A stretch of DNA of 64,000 nucleotides from Geothrix sp. SG200 (lineage in GTDB: Bacteria > Acidobacteriota > Holophagae > Holophagales > Holophagaceae): contig NZ_JAKZFR010000002.1 in assembly GCF_022808935.1 (NCBI RefSeq), forward strand, positions 434,001 to 498,000. Reading direction: 5' to 3'. Below are positions 53,109 to 62,790 of this stretch, one piece after another (the first letter of the stretch is position 1; every line of letters starts with the position of its first letter). Made by a program: the position numbers and the translations under genes. The notes beneath the pieces are model-generated. The model ran no database searches, was not told the origin of the DNA, and saw only the letters and a list, made by a program, of their open reading frames with translations.

Positions 53109-54569
53109 GTGAGCAAGGTTCTCTTCGTGGTGCCACCCTACTCCAGCTGGGGGGTGGAGGTCATCGGCACCTGGCCGCCGCTCCAGATCGCCTACCTGGC
53201 GGGGGCCGTCGAGGGGGCGGGGCATGAGGCCCGCATCTACGACGCCATGAACCGGGAGGGCGCCAGCTTCGAGAGCATCCGCGCGGAGGTCGAAGAGTAC
53301 CGCCCGGATATCGTCGTGGCCTACGACTACCTGCCCGTCACCGGCGCCATCAGCACGGCGGTGGTGCCCGCGGCCATGAAGGCCCTGGGACTGGCCAAGG
53401 CGGTGGATCCCGCCATCACCACGCTCATCGGCGGCCCCTTCCCCACCTTCAAATACGCCGAGCTTCTGCGGGATCCCTCCGGGGCCGTGGACATCGTCCT
53501 GCGCGGCGAAGCGGAAGCCACCTTCCCCGAGCTTTTGGCCGCCCTTCCGGGCGGCGCGCTGGACGGGGTCCGCGGCCTCGCCTTCCTGCGCGACGACGAG
53601 ATCATCGTCACCGAGACCCGCCCCCACATCACGGACCTCGACGCAGTCAAGCCCGCCTGGCACCTGCTGGACTGGGACGCCTACCGCTACCGCATCGATC
53701 CGCCGGGCCGCATGGCTTCCATCCTCACCTCCCGCGGCTGCATGATGGGCTGCTCGTTCTGCAGCCACCGGGCCTTCTGGCGGGGCGACTGGCGCGCGCG
53801 GACGCCTGAGGACGTCATCGAGGAGATCCGCCTGCTCGTGGACCGCTACGCCGTCGAATCCATCACGATGATCGACCCGTACCCCACCCACGACCGGGAG
53901 CGCTGGGAGCGGCTCCTCGACCTCATCATCGACGCCAGGCTCGGCATCCGGCTGCTGATGGAGACCCGCGCGGAGGATGTGGTGCGCGACGCGGACCTGC
54001 TGCCCAAGTACCGGGAGGCGGGCGTGGTGCACCTTTACATCGGGGCCGAGGCCGGCACGGACGAGCTGCTGGCCTCCCTCAACAAGGGCAACGACGTGGA
54101 CGCCATCGTCCAGGCCATCCGACTCGCCCGCGAGCACGACATCGTCACCGAAGCCTCCTTCATGATCGGCCACCCCACGGAGACCCAGGCCTCCATCGAC
54201 CGCACCATCGAGGTCGCCATCCGGATGAACCCCGATATCGCGGTGTTCCCCGTCCTGACGCCCATGCCCTTCACGCCCCTCTACGACCAGATGCAGGACC
54301 GGGTGCGCGTCCACGACTACTCCAAATACAACCTGTCCACCCCGATCATCGAGCCGTACGACATGACGATCGAGGAGGTCGCCATCGCTCTGGGGCGCTG
54401 CTACATGACCTTCTACGCCCAGAAGATCCCCCAGATCCGGGCCCTGCCGGACGGCTTCAAGCGCCGCTACCTCCTGAGCGCCTGCAAGGAGATGATGGCC
54501 GCCTACGGCAAGCACTTCAGCCACCTGGGGGCGAAGATGCCGAAGATGCACCCCCATCCGGCCGCCTGA
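53109..54569 (+). CDS. B12-binding domain radical SAM protein
   Basis: A 486-residue protein. The N-terminal 160 residues are a cobalamin-binding-like Rossmann domain (VLFVVPPYSSWGVEVIG, WPPLQIAYLAGAVEGAGHEA). The radical SAM core begins near residue 205 with SRGCMMGCSFCSHR, the CX3CX2C cluster motif. It resembles BchE/HpnJ-like enzymes, which act on tetrapyrroles or lipids, and methyltransferases. The N-domain lacks an obvious DxHxxG motif. The substrate is unknown. GTG start. It follows ccsA by 71 bases and may be co-transcribed. Confidence 0.8.
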   Translation: MSKVLFVVPPYSSWGVEVIGTWPPLQIAYLAGAVEGAGHEARIYDAMNREGASFESIRAEVEEYRPDIVVAYDYLPVTGAISTAVVPAAMKALGLAKAVDPAITTLIGGPFPTFKYAELLRDPSGAVDIVLRGEAEATFPELLAALPGGALDGVRGLAFLRDDEIIVTETRPHITDLDAVKPAWHLLDWDAYRYRIDPPGRMASILTSRGCMMGCSFCSHRAFWRGDWRARTPEDVIEEIRLLVDRYAVESITMIDPYPTHDRERWERLLDLIIDARLGIRLLMETRAEDVVRDADLLPKYREAGVVHLYIGAEAGTDELLASLNKGNDVDAIVQAIRLAREHDIVTEASFMIGHPTETQASIDRTIEVAIRMNPDIAVFPVLTPMPFTPLYDQMQDRVRVHDYSKYNLSTPIIEPYDMTIEEVAIALGRCYMTFYAQKIPQIRALPDGFKRRYLLSACKEMMAAYGKHFSHLGAKMPKMHPHPAA

Positions 54570-55427: not shown

Positions 55428-55955
55428 TCACCTGGGCCGGATCGCCCCCTGCCCCGGCGGCAGGCCTGTGGCGAAGGCCTGGCCGCCGGCGCCCTGTTTC
55501 TCGAGCACGAGCGCCTGCAGGGTCCGGGCGGCCCTGCCGCGCAGGCGGATCATCCGCCCCTCGGCGCCCAGACGGAACTCGGCGGCGCTCATGAAGGCCC
55601 AGGAGGATCCGCTGGCTTCCTTCTCGAGCCGGATCTGACTCCAAGGGATGCTGGCCGGCCCCTGCCACCAGGCGGGCTGGAAAGGGAAGGGCTGTTTCAT
55701 GTGCAGGCAGCGACGGCCCACTTTCAGGGACATGGGCGAGTGGCCGCGCAGGGCGCCGAACTCCACCTGCTGCCAGCCGAGATTCTTCTCGATGGGGTCG
55801 GTGGGATCGGCGGGGAAGGCCGCATAGAGCGCGGGAATGCCCATGAGCCGGTTGGTGAGCCAGGAGCCCGCCAGGAAGACCACCGGGATCAGCAGCAGAA
55901 TTGCGGGCGGGGGCGGGGATCCGCCGCGTGACGCGAGCAGCGCGAGGACCATCAT
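55428..55955 (-). CDS. membrane-anchored protein of unknown function
   Basis: A 175-residue protein with one or two N-terminal membrane helices (AILLLIPVVFLAGSWLTNRL) and a beta-rich soluble part with IPWSQIRLEKEASGSSWAFM, like a PH-type or photosystem-assembly-like small domain. No family recognised. Start ATG 55955 overlaps the mazG stop (ATGA). Confidence 0.6.
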   Translation of the reverse strand: MMVLALLASRGGSPPPPAILLLIPVVFLAGSWLTNRLMGIPALYAAFPADPTDPIEKNLGWQQVEFGALRGHSPMSLKVGRRCLHMKQPFPFQPAWWQGPASIPWSQIRLEKEASGSSWAFMSAAEFRLGAEGRMIRLRGRAARTLQALVLEKQGAGGQAFATGLPPGQGAIRPR

Positions 55956-56740
55956 GGCTTCTGCCTCCGCTTCGCGGCCTGCCAGGCGGCTTCCATCTCG
56001 TCGAGGGTGCGTCGGTCCCATCCGCCCGCGGCCCGGGCATCATCCTCCACGGACGTGAACCGGCCCTTGAACCGCGTCATCTGGCGGCGCAGGGCCCGGT
56101 CCGGGTCCACCCCCTTCTTCCGTGCCCACTGCATGAGGCTGAACAGCACGTCGCCGAACTCCTCTTCCACGCGCACAGGGTCGGACTCGGCTTGGAGCTC
56201 CGCCACCTCCTCCTTCACCTTGTCGAGGACGCCCTCCAGATCGGGCCACTCGAAGCCCACCTTCGCGCAGCGGCGGCCGATCTCCAGGGCCTCCTCCATG
56301 GGCGACAGCGAGGCCGGGATGCCCTCGAGCAGGCGCGGATCCCGGCCGTGGAGCCCCTTCTCCTCACGCTTGATGGCGGCCCAGTTGGTGAGCACCTCGT
56401 CCGCGCCCTCCACCTCGACCTCCGCGAACACGTGCGGATGCCGGCGCACGAGCTTCTCCACCACCGTCCGCTCCACGTCATGGAGATCCCAGGCGCCCCG
56501 GTCCGCCGCCAGCTGGGCGTGGAAGGCGATCTGCAGCCAGAGGTCGCCCAACTCTTCGCAGAGGTGCGCTTCCGTGACGGGATCGCCGGGTGTGTGCGCC
56601 GCCAGGGCGTCCAGCACCTCCGCCGCCTCCTCGCGAAGGTAGCGGGCCAGCGACACGTGGGTCTGCTTCAGATCCCAGGGGCAGCCCGTCTCCGGCTTGC
56701 GGAGGGCGGCCATGACAGCGCGGAGGGTCGTGGGTTCCAT
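55952..56740 (-). CDS. mazG: nucleoside triphosphate pyrophosphohydrolase MazG
   Basis: A 262-residue two-domain MazG. The N-domain has CPWDLKQTHVSLARYLREEA and EELGDLWLQIAFHAQ; the C-domain has FEWPDLEGVLDKVKEEVAEL and EEEFGDVLFSLMQWAR, the EEXXE-type metal sites. It hydrolyses NTPs and dNTPs to monophosphates and pyrophosphate. It lies 26 bases from the transpeptidase/Mur-ligase gene. Confidence 0.92.
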   Translation of the reverse strand: MEPTTLRAVMAALRKPETGCPWDLKQTHVSLARYLREEAAEVLDALAAHTPGDPVTEAHLCEELGDLWLQIAFHAQLAADRGAWDLHDVERTVVEKLVRRHPHVFAEVEVEGADEVLTNWAAIKREEKGLHGRDPRLLEGIPASLSPMEEALEIGRRCAKVGFEWPDLEGVLDKVKEEVAELQAESDPVRVEEEFGDVLFSLMQWARKKGVDPDRALRRQMTRFKGRFTSVEDDARAAGGWDRRTLDEMEAAWQAAKRRQKP

Positions 56741-56766: not shown

Positions 56767-58701
56767 TCAGAGGGCGACGAGGATGGCCTTGGCCAGGTCC
56801 GTGAGCGAGGGATCCCGCGCCCCCATCACGAGGATGAGGTCACCCGCCTTCGCTTCGCCAGTCAGACGATCCACGAGCCATTCCCGCGAAGGTGCGGCTT
56901 CGGCGGCGGTACCTTTCGTGGCGATCTCGGCCACCACCTCGGCGCTGGTGATGTCCCGGGCAGCCGTCCCGCCCGCGTAGAACACGTCCAGGAACCAGAG
57001 GCGGTCCTGCGGCCCGAGCTCCGCGGCGAAGGCGTCCACGAACTCCGCCCGCAGGAACTTCAGGGGCCCGAAGCCGTGGGGCTGGAACACCGCCAGCACC
57101 CGTCCGCCAGAGGCCGCCGTGCGCAGGTGGGCAGCCCGGAGGGAGGCCGCCACCTTGGCGGGATTATGCGCAAAGTCGTCCACCACCGTCACGCCGCGGC
57201 ATTCGCCCAGCACCTGGAAGCGCCGGGCCACGCCCTGGAAGACAGCCAGCGGCCCCGCCATGGCTTCAAGCGGCACGCCCACCGCCTGGCAAGCCGCCAT
57301 GGCCGCCAAGGCATTCTCGACATTGTGGAGGCCTGGCACGGGCAGCCTGAAATCCTTTCCCCCTGCGCGGAAGGCGGTGCTTTCCGCGCCAAGCACCAGG
57401 CCCTCGGCCCGCAATCCGGCCCCATCCGCAAACCCGAAGGTGGTGGCGCCCATGGCGAACTCGCGCAGATTCTCCGCCTCGCCCACCACGGCGGCCTCCC
57501 GCACCTGGGCGCGGAAGGCGCGGAACATCTCCGCCACCACGGCCATGTCCTTGTGGTCTTTCTGGAGGTTGAGGATCACGCCCACGGCGGCGTGGTAGCG
57601 CACCACGGACCCGTCGCTCTCGTCGGCCTCGATGACCAGCAGGTCCGACGCACCGGCCCAGGCATTGCCCCAGCGTCCCTCCCGCTGGAGGGCCACCAGC
57701 TCGCCGCCGGTGATGACGGAGGGGTCGCGCCCCGCGCCCCGCAGGATCTCGAAAACCATGGCCGTGGTGGTGGACTTGCCGCTGGTGCCCGTCACCGCCA
57801 CCGTCCGGTACTTCGCCACCACATGCGCCAGCAGCTCCGAGCGATGCAGCACGGGTACCCCCAGGCGCCGGGCCGCGGCCACGTCCGGCACCTCGTCCTC
57901 CACGGCGGTGGACACCACCAGGGCCGCGCAGTCGCCGGTCAGGCCCGAGCCGTCCTGGGGATGGATCGCCACGCCCAGGTCCTCCAGCTGCGCCCGGGCA
58001 TCGGGCCGTTGGCCCCGGTCGAAGCTGCGGTCGCTGCCGCTGGCCCGGCCGCCCTTCATGCACGCGAACTGGGCCAGGGCGCTCATGCCGCTGCCCGCCA
58101 CGCCCGCGAAGTGGAGCCGTCCCAGGCCGAAGCCGTCACCGGGCAGGTCCTCGGCGATGAGCAGGAGATCCCCCTCGGCCATGCGGTCGAAGAGCGCCAC
58201 CACGTCGGTGTTGGACAGGCGCACGCAGCCATGGGACACCGGCGTGCCCAGCTCGTGCTCCTGGTTGGTGCCGTGGAGGTAGATCCAGCGCAGCCGGGAG
58301 TCCCGCCCCGGCCCGCGGTTCCAGCCCTCCTCCAGGCCCTCGAGGGTGAGCACGCGGGTGAGGATGAGGTCCTCGTCGCGCGGCTCGCCGCGCCACACCT
58401 CGCCGGTGGGCTGCTGGGCCCTGAACACCGCGCCGGGCTCGGCCTCCTCGCCGATGCGCGCGAGGATGCGGTGCCAGCCCGTGGGCGTGCGGTACGAGTT
58501 CTCTTCGCAACCCAGGCCGTTCTTCGCCGTGGAGACCACCGCCTCGAAGACCAGCCGTCCGTCCTCCAGCAGGCCCAGGCGCTGGCGGGCCGCGTCCACC
58601 ACCGCCACGCGCGCGCGGGGATCCCAGGCGGGCGCCCCCGGCCGGGCGAGGTTCGCCAGCAGGAGGGCGCGGTAGCGGGCGGCCAGGACCGGATCGATCA
58701 C
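56767..58701 (-). CDS. L,D-transpeptidase (YkuD) fused to a Mur ligase (Mpl/MurC-like)
   Basis: A 644-residue fusion. Residues about 25-190 are a YkuD-type L,D-transpeptidase with IYLHGTNQEHELGTPVSHGC and VRLSN; the catalytic Cys is near residue 155. From about residue 198 a full Mur ligase follows: LHFAGVAGSGMSALAQFACM, P-loop VAVTGTSGKSTTTAM near 303, VIEADESDGSVVRYHA, GLHNVENALAAMAACQAVGV and VTVVDDFAHNPAKVAASL. It is closest to Mpl/MurC, which join amino acids or peptides to UDP-MurNAc in the cytoplasm. There is no signal peptide. GTG start overlapping the aconitase-family stop. Confidence 0.85.
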   Translation of the reverse strand: MIDPVLAARYRALLLANLARPGAPAWDPRARVAVVDAARQRLGLLEDGRLVFEAVVSTAKNGLGCEENSYRTPTGWHRILARIGEEAEPGAVFRAQQPTGEVWRGEPRDEDLILTRVLTLEGLEEGWNRGPGRDSRLRWIYLHGTNQEHELGTPVSHGCVRLSNTDVVALFDRMAEGDLLLIAEDLPGDGFGLGRLHFAGVAGSGMSALAQFACMKGGRASGSDRSFDRGQRPDARAQLEDLGVAIHPQDGSGLTGDCAALVVSTAVEDEVPDVAAARRLGVPVLHRSELLAHVVAKYRTVAVTGTSGKSTTTAMVFEILRGAGRDPSVITGGELVALQREGRWGNAWAGASDLLVIEADESDGSVVRYHAAVGVILNLQKDHKDMAVVAEMFRAFRAQVREAAVVGEAENLREFAMGATTFGFADGAGLRAEGLVLGAESTAFRAGGKDFRLPVPGLHNVENALAAMAACQAVGVPLEAMAGPLAVFQGVARRFQVLGECRGVTVVDDFAHNPAKVAASLRAAHLRTAASGGRVLAVFQPHGFGPLKFLRAEFVDAFAAELGPQDRLWFLDVFYAGGTAARDITSAEVVAEIATKGTAAEAAPSREWLVDRLTGEAKAGDLILVMGARDPSLTDLAKAILVAL

Positions 58702-60650
58702 GCCTCCACCCCCGCGATGCGCCCCGCCAGGGCGCTGGCGGCGACGGTGGCGGGGCTGGCCAGCCACATCTGGCCCGGCCCGCTGCGGCCGGGGAAGTTG
58801 CGGTTAATGGCGCTGATGGTCACCTCGTCGGGTCGCGTGGAGACGCCGGGCCCGGCGTTGATGCAGGCGCCGCAGGAGCTGCCCAGCACCACGGCCCCCA
58901 CGGCCTCGAAGGCCGCGATCCAGCCCTGCGCCTCGGCGTGGCGGCGCACGTCCTCGCTGCCGCACTGCACGAAGAACCGCACGCCCTCGGGGATACGCCG
59001 TCCCTCCGCCGCCGCAGCCCTCACCACCTCGTAGGCCCGGCGCAGGTCCTCGCGCTTGCCGCCGGTGCAGCTGCCCAGGTAGGCGATGTGGATGGGCACC
59101 GTCTCGCCCAGGCCCGACAGGGCCAGGCCGTTCCCCGGATCGCCGGGGCGGGCCAGCATGGGCCCCAGGGCCGCGCAGTCCACGTCGAGGGTCTTGGCGT
59201 ACTCGGCGTCCTCGTCGCCGCGCATCCAGGGCTCCAGCGTGATTTCCGCGCCCCGGCGCTCCTTCACGAAGCGCACGGTCTCGGCATCCGGCGCGATGAG
59301 GCCCGTGAAGCCGCCGATCTCCGCCGCCATGTTGGTGAGCGTGGCCCGCTCGTCCGTGTCCAGGTCGCGCAGGGCCTCGCCCTGGTACTCGACCACGTGG
59401 CCGATGGCGCCGCCCTCGCGGATGAGGGGCTGGGCCAGCAGGTGCAGCACCAGGTCCTTGGCGGACACGCCGGGGCGCAGGCGCCCATTCAGGCGCACCC
59501 GCAGCGTGGGGGGCACGGTGACGCGCGCGTCGCCCGTCACCCAGGCGCAGGCGATGTCCGTGGTGCCGACGCCGAAGGCCAGACAGCCCAGCGCGCCGGC
59601 GTGGGGCGTGTGCGAGTCCGTGCCCACCACCACCTGGCCCGGCAGGGCGTAGCGCTCCGCCATGATGGCGTGGCAGATGCCCTCGCTGCCCGATCCGTCG
59701 GGCAGCTCGCCGTGGAGCCGGATGCCGTGCTTCGCGCAGAAGGCCTCCTGGGCGGGCTTCAGGCCCTCGGCCACCGCCAGTAGGCCCATGGCCCGGTGCT
59801 CAGCCTTCATGCTGTGGCGCAGGAAGGTGAGGTGGTCGCGGAAGGCCAGGATGGAGGACGGATCGCGCAGCTGGACGTCCGGCCCCAGCGCCTTCTCCAG
59901 GAAGCTGGCGGCCATGGGCGTCACGTACTCGTGGCTGAAGCGCCAGTCGGCCTGCACGAAGAGGCCGTCACCGGGCTTCACGACCCGCAGGCCCACCTGC
60001 CCGGCCGCGGCGTCCACCACCGTGTGGCGCGCCAGCAGCTTCTCGGCGTAGGTCATGGGACGCGGCTTGTGGGCGGGCAGCGGCGGTGCCACCTCGCCCG
60101 CTAGGCGCGCAGCGTTGTAGGCAAAGAGACCCCCGCGCCGCACGATCTCCGCCGTGACGGGATCCAGGCCCTCGGTGAATTCGGCCAGGGGGATGCCCTC
60201 GCCGCGCCGCAGCCGGGCGATCAGGCCGAAGTCCGTGCTGGTGAGCAGGCCCAGGTTCTGGCAGTTCTGCCGGTAGATGCGCTCGAAGCTCTCCGCGATC
60301 ACCAGCCGGAGGCCCGCGCACCACTCGGCATAGGGGCTGGCCTCGCGGCTGCTGCCCTTGCCGCGGCGTTTCCCCGCCACGCTCACCGCGAAGCCGCCGG
60401 CCTTCACGGCACCTTCCTTCACCGGGAAGCGATCCCCGCACTTCAGGCCCAGGTAGGGGAAGTCACCCAGCTTCTCGTCGTAGTGGTAGCAGATGAAGGC
60501 CGGCGTGATCTCGTCGGTGCTGATCTGGTCGCGCAGGGGACCGATTGCCGAGGGATCCAGGTCATCGCCCGCGAGTTGGCGATGGATCGGTTCCGGATCC
60601 TCCGTGAGGAACAGGATTCGGCCATCGAAGAAGATCGAGTCGGGCAACAT
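58698..60650 (-). CDS. aconitase/isopropylmalate isomerase superfamily enzyme, swivel domain first
   Basis: About 650 residues. Unlike AcnA, the small swivel domain comes first (residues about 30-180: TDEITPAFICYHYDEKLGDF, GKRRGKGSSREASPYAEW), followed by the three-part catalytic region (VVGTDSHTPHAGALGCLAFG, AIGHVVEYQGEALRDLD). Cluster cysteines lie in YLGSCTGGKRED near 523 and SSCGACINAGPG near 592. It could be an aconitase, isopropylmalate or related dehydratase; substrate not determined. ATG 60650 chosen; TTG 60668 is possible. Its stop overlaps the fusion gene's GTG. Confidence 0.82.
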   Translation of the reverse strand: MLPDSIFFDGRILFLTEDPEPIHRQLAGDDLDPSAIGPLRDQISTDEITPAFICYHYDEKLGDFPYLGLKCGDRFPVKEGAVKAGGFAVSVAGKRRGKGSSREASPYAEWCAGLRLVIAESFERIYRQNCQNLGLLTSTDFGLIARLRRGEGIPLAEFTEGLDPVTAEIVRRGGLFAYNAARLAGEVAPPLPAHKPRPMTYAEKLLARHTVVDAAAGQVGLRVVKPGDGLFVQADWRFSHEYVTPMAASFLEKALGPDVQLRDPSSILAFRDHLTFLRHSMKAEHRAMGLLAVAEGLKPAQEAFCAKHGIRLHGELPDGSGSEGICHAIMAERYALPGQVVVGTDSHTPHAGALGCLAFGVGTTDIACAWVTGDARVTVPPTLRVRLNGRLRPGVSAKDLVLHLLAQPLIREGGAIGHVVEYQGEALRDLDTDERATLTNMAAEIGGFTGLIAPDAETVRFVKERRGAEITLEPWMRGDEDAEYAKTLDVDCAALGPMLARPGDPGNGLALSGLGETVPIHIAYLGSCTGGKREDLRRAYEVVRAAAAEGRRIPEGVRFFVQCGSEDVRRHAEAQGWIAAFEAVGAVVLGSSCGACINAGPGVSTRPDEVTISAINRNFPGRSGPGQMWLASPATVAASALAGRIAGVEA

Positions 60651-60721
60651 CCTTCCAGAGTACGGCAAGGGCAGGCACTCGGGTTTTGAGAGAAGAATGA
60701 CCCCCAGCCTGGGCCCATCGC

Positions 60722-62007: not shown

Positions 62008-62790
62008 CTAGAGGTAGCTCCGCGCCCCCATGAAGGCGCGCTGGTAGTAGCGGTCCGAGAGCCGGTCCCGGCGGATGCCCTGCCCCGGCCGCGGCGCGTG
62101 GATGAAGGCCCCATCCCCCAGGTACAGCGCCACATGGCTCACCCGGCCACCCCCGTTCGTCGCGAAGAAGAGCAGGTCCCCCGCCCGGGCGTCATCCAGG
62201 TCCACAGCCCTGCCCACCTCGAACTGGGCCTGGGAGGAGCGCGGCAGCTTCAATCCGTTCAGCCGGTACACGGCGCCCGTGAGGCCGCTGCAGTCGAAGC
62301 CCTTCTCCGTGGTGCCCCCGAACAGGTAGGGCACGCCCAGGTAGCCCGTGGCGGTCTCCACCAGGCTGGCCCGCAGGCCCTTCTCGTCCTCGGGGTGGAC
62401 CTGGAAACGCCCGCCGGCCCCCGGGGCCGATCCGTTCGGAGCCACCACCCAGAATGTCTCGATCACCCCGGCGGCCTTCAGGGCCTCGCCGCGGGCCCGG
62501 GCCTTCTCCTTGGTGGCGAAGTCTCCGAACCGCACCCGGTAGAGGCCGTCCTCCGAGCCGTAATAGGCCGCCTCCAGACCCTGCACCTGCAGCGCCTGGG
62601 CGAAGCGCGCCGCGTTCTCCACCTTGGCGAAGGCTCCGGCCTGCAGGGTGTAGCCCAGCCGGGGAATGACCCGCGCCCCGACCAGGCTGGAGGGGGGCCG
62701 CTCCACGGTTCGGCGCGGCGCACGCGTGCAGGCCGCCAGCGCCAGCAGGGCCGCCGCCACGGATGCGCCCCTCCTGTGCCTGCTGAGCAT
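62008..62790 (-). CDS. SPOR-domain NlpC/P60 lipoprotein (peptidoglycan hydrolase)
   Basis: A 260-residue lipoprotein: lipobox LALAACTR, a SPOR domain at about residues 45-115 (YTLQAGAFAKVENAARFAQA), and an NlpC/P60 cysteine-peptidase domain at 140-260 (GVPYLFGGTTEKGFDCSGLT with the catalytic Cys, then SHVALYLGDGAFIHAP with the His). SPOR domains bind denuded glycan at division sites; the peptidase cuts stem peptides. Probably outer-membrane anchored. Confidence 0.9.
   Translation of the reverse strand: MLSRHRRGASVAAALLALAACTRAPRRTVERPPSSLVGARVIPRLGYTLQAGAFAKVENAARFAQALQVQGLEAAYYGSEDGLYRVRFGDFATKEKARARGEALKAAGVIETFWVVAPNGSAPGAGGRFQVHPEDEKGLRASLVETATGYLGVPYLFGGTTEKGFDCSGLTGAVYRLNGLKLPRSSQAQFEVGRAVDLDDARAGDLLFFATNGGGRVSHVALYLGDGAFIHAPRPGQGIRRDRLSDRYYQRAFMGARSYL

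Follow-up and report, generated by a model that had tools for sequence, protein, structure and literature searches.

The Holophagaceae bacterium Geothrix sp. SG200 encodes a 644-amino-acid protein in which a YkuD domain is fused to a complete Mur ligase. Judged from its sequence, it is predicted to be a cytoplasmic, bifunctional enzyme of peptidoglycan recycling, equivalent to LdcA plus Mpl on one chain, a reading held at a probability of about 0.72. Recycling with trimming is favoured because the YkuD domain is ElsL-like, a leader is missing, a separate murC is present and canonical Mpl and LdcA are not. The loss of the L-Ala-site residues of MurC and the cell-wall neighbourhoods in some relatives argue in the same direction.

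Gene, domains and distribution

The window, i.e. the whole stretch of 64,000 nucleotides analysed, is part of an assembly of 3.36 Mb in 10 contigs. The original prediction described a single open frame with a YkuD domain and a complete Mur ligase and left its strand unstated. The frame lies on the minus strand, and both parts are confirmed by Pfam, with all four domains above the gathering cut-off. Every motif quoted in the prediction is present: HGT (residues 143-145), SHGC (156-159), GTSGKST (305-311), EADESDGS (358-365) and DDFAHNP (508-514). The features are as follows.

56767..58701, minus strand: YkuD-Mur ligase fusion gene, 644 aa, GTG start, stop included
58698..60668, minus strand: aconitase-family gene, upstream neighbour (context only); its stop overlaps the GTG start of the fusion by 4 nt (GTGA)
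55952..56740, minus strand: MazG nucleotide pyrophosphohydrolase, downstream neighbour, 26 bp from the fusion (context only)
58165..58611, minus strand: YkuD (L,D-transpeptidase-fold) domain, residues 31-179 (Pfam); best NCBIfam match ElsL
58273..58275, minus strand: His143 of the HGT motif, invariant in 48 aligned YkuD domains
58225..58227, minus strand: Cys159 of the SHGC motif, predicted nucleophile, invariant in 48 aligned YkuD domains
58117..58152, minus strand: short inter-domain linker, residues 184-195
57808..58116, minus strand: Mur_ligase (PF01225), N-terminal UDP-MurNAc-binding domain, residues 196-298 (Pfam)
57289..57795, minus strand: Mur_ligase_M (PF08245), central ATPase domain, residues 303-471 (Pfam)
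57769..57789, minus strand: P-loop GTSGKST, residues 305-311, with Ser in place of the His of MurC and Mpl
56815..57225, minus strand: Mur_ligase_C (PF02875), C-terminal peptide-binding domain, residues 493-629 (Pfam)
57160..57180, minus strand: DDFAHNP, residues 508-514; Phe510 at the position of Haemophilus influenzae MurC Tyr346, Asn513 clade-specific
57064..57084, minus strand: QPHGFGP, residues 540-546; Gly543 and Pro546 at the positions of MurC Arg377 and Arg380 (L-Ala site)

AlphaFold2, supplied with an alignment of 55 sequences, models a single confident chain (pLDDT 93.0, pTM 0.91). The linker is longer in the orthologs of two genomes (L122 and L123, from G008 and G035). A plus-strand ORF overlapping the fusion (57076-59034, 652 aa) was taken for a high-GC antisense frame and set aside, given that the recognised domains and the conserved relatives belong to the minus-strand protein. 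No functional link between the fusion and its Geothrix neighbours, aconitase and MazG, was found, and this neighbourhood is uninformative for the recycling reading. Elsewhere in the window, a lipoprotein-like SPOR and NlpC/P60 protein, a probable periplasmic murein endopeptidase, is encoded 3 kb from the fusion (62008-62790, minus strand), and a B12-binding radical SAM protein at 53109-54569 (plus strand).

A frameshift hiding two separate genes, a doubt raised in the original prediction, and an assembly artefact are both ruled out by conserved in-frame, full-length orthologs, which occur in several phyla and reach down to 42% identity. Those of Geothrix fermentans and G. terrae are 87-90% identical to the fusion. 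The full architecture is present in 53 of 65 Holophagaceae genomes; in G207 of this family, the ligase half stands alone at a contig edge. Fusions also occur in Hyphomicrobiaceae, among them Methyloceanibacter, in Candidatus Eisenbacteria, in Syntrophales, in Syntrophus and Syntrophorhabdus, and in Nitrospirota and Fibrobacterota. The two halves are separate, overlapping genes in one lineage (L104 and L106), and lie in two overlapping frames on the Eisenbacteria contig L073. A solo ligase from Eisenbacteria (L093) is probably a fusion split between contigs, because its genome also contains an ElsL-like YkuD gene that is cut off at the end of a contig. The plasmid collection yielded partial MurC-type matches only. 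It had been considered that the architecture might be common and already described. It is indeed widespread, and no description was found in the open-access papers covered by the search. The component parts are of known kinds, and their combination and the ligase clade appear to be undescribed in the literature covered.

The YkuD half and the proposed trimming step

ElsL of Acinetobacter baumannii is a cytoplasmic L,D-carboxypeptidase that strips D-Ala from tetrapeptides. After its loss, Mpl reuses the tetrapeptide, leading to aberrant, toxic tetrapeptide precursors (PMC8649774). The YkuD half of the fusion is ElsL-like, a predicted cytoplasmic recycling L,D-carboxypeptidase. Among the NCBIfam models, ElsL (NF040925) matches best with 138.4 bits, whereas no L,D-transpeptidase model exceeds 27 bits, and the match to ElsL extends to each of the 33 YkuD halves aligned. 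As in ElsL (PMC8649774, PMC8630537), the YkuD domain is leaderless and has the catalytic Cys together with the His; residues 34-184 span nearly the whole ElsL profile, and the predicted step is likewise the conversion of a tetra- into a tripeptide. It differs from ElsL in being joined to a Mur ligase and in scoring below the narrow 270-bit cut-off of the model. An ortholog survey for ElsL dropped proteins longer than 200 aa (PMC8649774), a filter that would also have discarded such fusions.

The His of the SHGC motif is kept in 38 of 48 aligned YkuD domains. In several fusions, the motif reads SCGC or SQGC with the Cys kept (Methyloceanibacter L059; L085). The isolated domain matches the fold of Bacillus subtilis YkuD with a Z-score of 16.1 and also superposes on Csd6, Pgp2 and Bd1075, which are YkuD-fold carboxypeptidases.

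Periplasmic L,D-transpeptidases are expected to possess a signal peptide or a membrane anchor. The fusion has neither, as the original prediction had stated for the signal peptide: the strongest hydrophobicity over 12 N-terminal residues is 1.36, whereas two relatives that do carry a signal reach 2.7 and 3.7. For the ortholog of G. fuzhouensis, a stop directly precedes residue 1 of the frame, so that an upstream leader is impossible, and a stop codon lies immediately 5' of the start in several orthologs. Within a sister family, ElsL-like YkuD proteins of one genus (L112, L115, L116) have a signal-peptide-like N-terminus, and those of another genus (L113, L114, L117) are leaderless; this subfamily apparently serves in different compartments there. 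These three leaderless proteins are encoded by stand-alone genes, outside the Holophagaceae and within the same class, and G039, a genome from there, has a separate Mpl-type gene; thus, both predicted activities also occur unfused nearby.

For the fusion, we infer the substrates, the order of steps and the benefit of the shared chain as follows. A recycled tetrapeptide, L-Ala-D-Glu-DAP-D-Ala, would arrive in the cytoplasm, where the YkuD half (Cys159) would cut off D-Ala. The Mur-ligase half would join the tripeptide to UDP-MurNAc with ATP in an Mpl-like reaction, and MurF would then add D-Ala-D-Ala to the UDP-MurNAc-tripeptide. Trimming on the ligase's own chain would limit the formation of toxic UDP-MurNAc-tetrapeptide. 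Alternatively, the ligase may accept the tetrapeptide as well as the tripeptide, with the YkuD half trimming UDP-MurNAc-tetrapeptide after ligation as a proofreading activity in cis. Psychrobacter Mpl does ligate the tetrapeptide, at a slower rate (5.9 versus 260 per min; PMC3060825), the tetrapeptide product is harmful (PMC8649774), and both sites are held together by fusion or gene overlap. However, the substrate in the cited ElsL assay was a disaccharide-tetrapeptide, and the sequence offers nothing to tell trimming before ligation from trimming after it. Such an editing function is considered unlikely.

The ligase half

The three Pfam domains, the P-loop and the catalytic residues place the C-terminal half in the Mur ligase superfamily. 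The label "Mpl/MurC-like" of the original prediction stands as far as a Mur ligase is concerned; by sequence, the protein is assigned to a third clade, distinct from canonical Mpl and from canonical MurC. It scores 296.2 bits with the murC model (TIGR01082, cut-off 335.1) and 125.6 bits with the mpl model (TIGR01081, cut-off 388.7), below the threshold in both cases. In a tree of 78 ligases, the fusion-type clade was supported by 100/100, Mpl by 100/100 and MurC by 92/40. The fusion ligase did not group with Mpl; a branch with 100/100 support unites its clade with MurC against Mpl. L004, the MurD outgroup of a first tree, had formed a very long branch there and was left out of this one. Among solved structures, the modelled fold of residues 187-644 comes nearest to 1p3d, the MurC product complex (Z 46.4, rmsd 2.1, 439 residues), compared with a Z-score of 31.4 for full-length Mpl (3hn7).

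In H. influenzae MurC, the incoming amino acid is contacted by His376, Arg377, Arg380, Tyr346 and His348 (Das et al., PMC3060825). In the alignment, the Tyr346 position holds Tyr in 21 of 21 MurC, and Phe in all 48 clade members and in 17 of 17 Mpl. Arg380, also conserved in 21 of 21 MurC, is replaced by Pro in 47 of the 48 clade members. Gly occupies the Arg377 position in 47 of 48. This position already varies among MurC (19 Arg, 2 Leu), so that the argument on the L-Ala site is carried by Arg380 and Tyr346. The P-loop Lys and the Mg-binding Glu and His are kept throughout the clade (48/48); His348 and His376 are retained as well. The acceptor is thus probably not free L-Ala, and a peptide would be the simplest alternative. 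The deviating ligase motifs pointed out originally, GTSGKST for GTHGKTT and AHNP for AHHP, proved to be clade-wide: the P-loop His is replaced by Ser, and AHH by AHN, in 48 of 48 members each.

The fusion ligase, a predicted UDP-MurNAc ligase, shares with Mpl (TIGR01081) the Phe at the Tyr346 position and the lack of Arg at positions 377 and 380, and it fills the slot vacated by the missing Mpl. It differs in its separate clade, in its MurC-like ESDGS and in the absence of the Mpl-specific (S/T)AFFDKRSK motif (PMC3060825), the fusion reading DESDGSVVRY without insertion. With MurC (TIGR01082), it has three domains and the catalytic residues in common; it differs by the three replaced residues and by coexisting with a separate murC.

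Another reading takes the ligase half for a second MurC that adds L-Ala de novo, with the YkuD half as a passenger or regulatory domain. MurC is its best HMM match and its closest solved fold, and no other MurC match was found in five of the 44 clade-bearing assemblies (G238, G242, G257, G259, G260), notably in G260, in which the clade member is the sole MurC-type ligase found. However, a separate MurC is present in the other 39 and in the window's own genome, Arg380 and Tyr346 are replaced in nearly all members including the basal one, and the YkuD catalytic pair is invariant. As a general explanation, a second MurC is therefore very improbable. A MurC role may apply to some clade members, especially the basal one from Elusimicrobia. 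Clade members of this phylum lack the YkuD half, and no YkuD gene was found within the loci of these solo ligases. The YkuD proteins encoded elsewhere in four such genomes are not of the ElsL type, with about 29% identity or a short match, and a hydrophobic anchor is present at the N-terminus of at least two of them.

Recycling genes and significance

The check for a separate murC proposed in the original prediction was positive: the window's genome has one, 37% identical to the fusion ligase, and the fusion is its sole other MurC/Mpl-type ligase. The fusion also holds the only YkuD domain of this genome. An AmpG-like permease (435 bits, cut-off 350), a protein of GH3, the family expected of NagZ, and two Amidase_3 proteins were detected; searches of this genome for an LdcA-family protein (PF02016) and for an Amidase_2 (AmpD-type) domain found none. 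Canonical Mpl above cut-off was found in none of the 14 Holophagaceae tested. It is present in 70 of 149 genomes of the phylum and in none of the 44 clade-bearing genomes, counts that ignore kinship and include many incomplete MAGs. This exclusivity would be the pattern expected if a ligase of other ancestry had replaced Mpl.

The gene context of the fusion differs between phyla. In a deltaproteobacterial locus (L083), it follows MurB, Ddl, FtsQ, FtsA and FtsZ, and in a locus from Holophagaceae (L160), it starts 5 bp past MurD, in a cluster that also includes a PBP and MurF. The basal stand-alone ligase of Elusimicrobia (L107, G260) is located after dapA-aspartokinase-asd-dapB with overlapping ends, close to a MurE-like ligase. 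These contexts point to precursors of a DAP-containing wall.

Several findings count against the recycling reading: the ligase is nearer to MurC than to Mpl in bit score and fold, no Amidase_2/AmpD was found in the genome, an LdcA-family gene accompanies the fusion in 10 of 37 genus genomes, five clade-bearing assemblies gave no separate MurC match, and the Elusimicrobia members have no YkuD half. The original proposal of a recycling enzyme whose YkuD domain trims or exchanges the peptide before ligation is well supported by inference as to recycling and trimming; its exchange part found no specific support, and the order of trimming and ligation is left undecided by the sequence. The least probable reading is that of a genuine transpeptidase in the YkuD half, which would replace the fourth residue of peptides or precursors in the cytoplasm, for instance by another D-amino acid, either ahead of ligation or after it: the catalytic pair of Cys and His is intact and some YkuD enzymes carry out such exchanges, but the ElsL score far exceeds that of any L,D-transpeptidase model, and the resulting tetrapeptide would not be extendable by MurF, so that reuse would be defeated.

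The predicted overall reaction of the fusion, trimming followed by ligation, resembles the two-enzyme step of LdcA (peptidase S66) and Mpl, which are two proteins rather than one chain, LdcA having a fold unrelated to YkuD. Joining a Mur ligase to another wall enzyme is known from MurB-MurC and MurC-Ddl fusions (Verrucomicrobium MurB/MurC, PMC4803751; NF011171). These combine de novo steps, whereas the YkuD-Mur ligase is predicted to unite a recycling hydrolase and a ligase. The chances appear even that the family is a previously unrecognised, third clade of UDP-MurNAc:peptide ligases with a cis-acting L,D-carboxypeptidase, by which only the tripeptide re-enters wall synthesis.

Genomes without LdcA and Mpl are commonly taken as incapable of reusing wall peptides. 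A 2026 study on Caulobacter infers the degradation of stem peptides to amino acids in species without both enzymes (PMC13046382). If the prediction is true, several phyla would recycle peptides by an enzyme missed by current searches, and quality control of peptide recycling would be built in, in phyla thought to lack LdcA and Mpl. Trimming and ligation, the imbalance of which is toxic in A. baumannii and Escherichia coli, could then be joined on one chain, and channelling versus editing would become a question about one protein.
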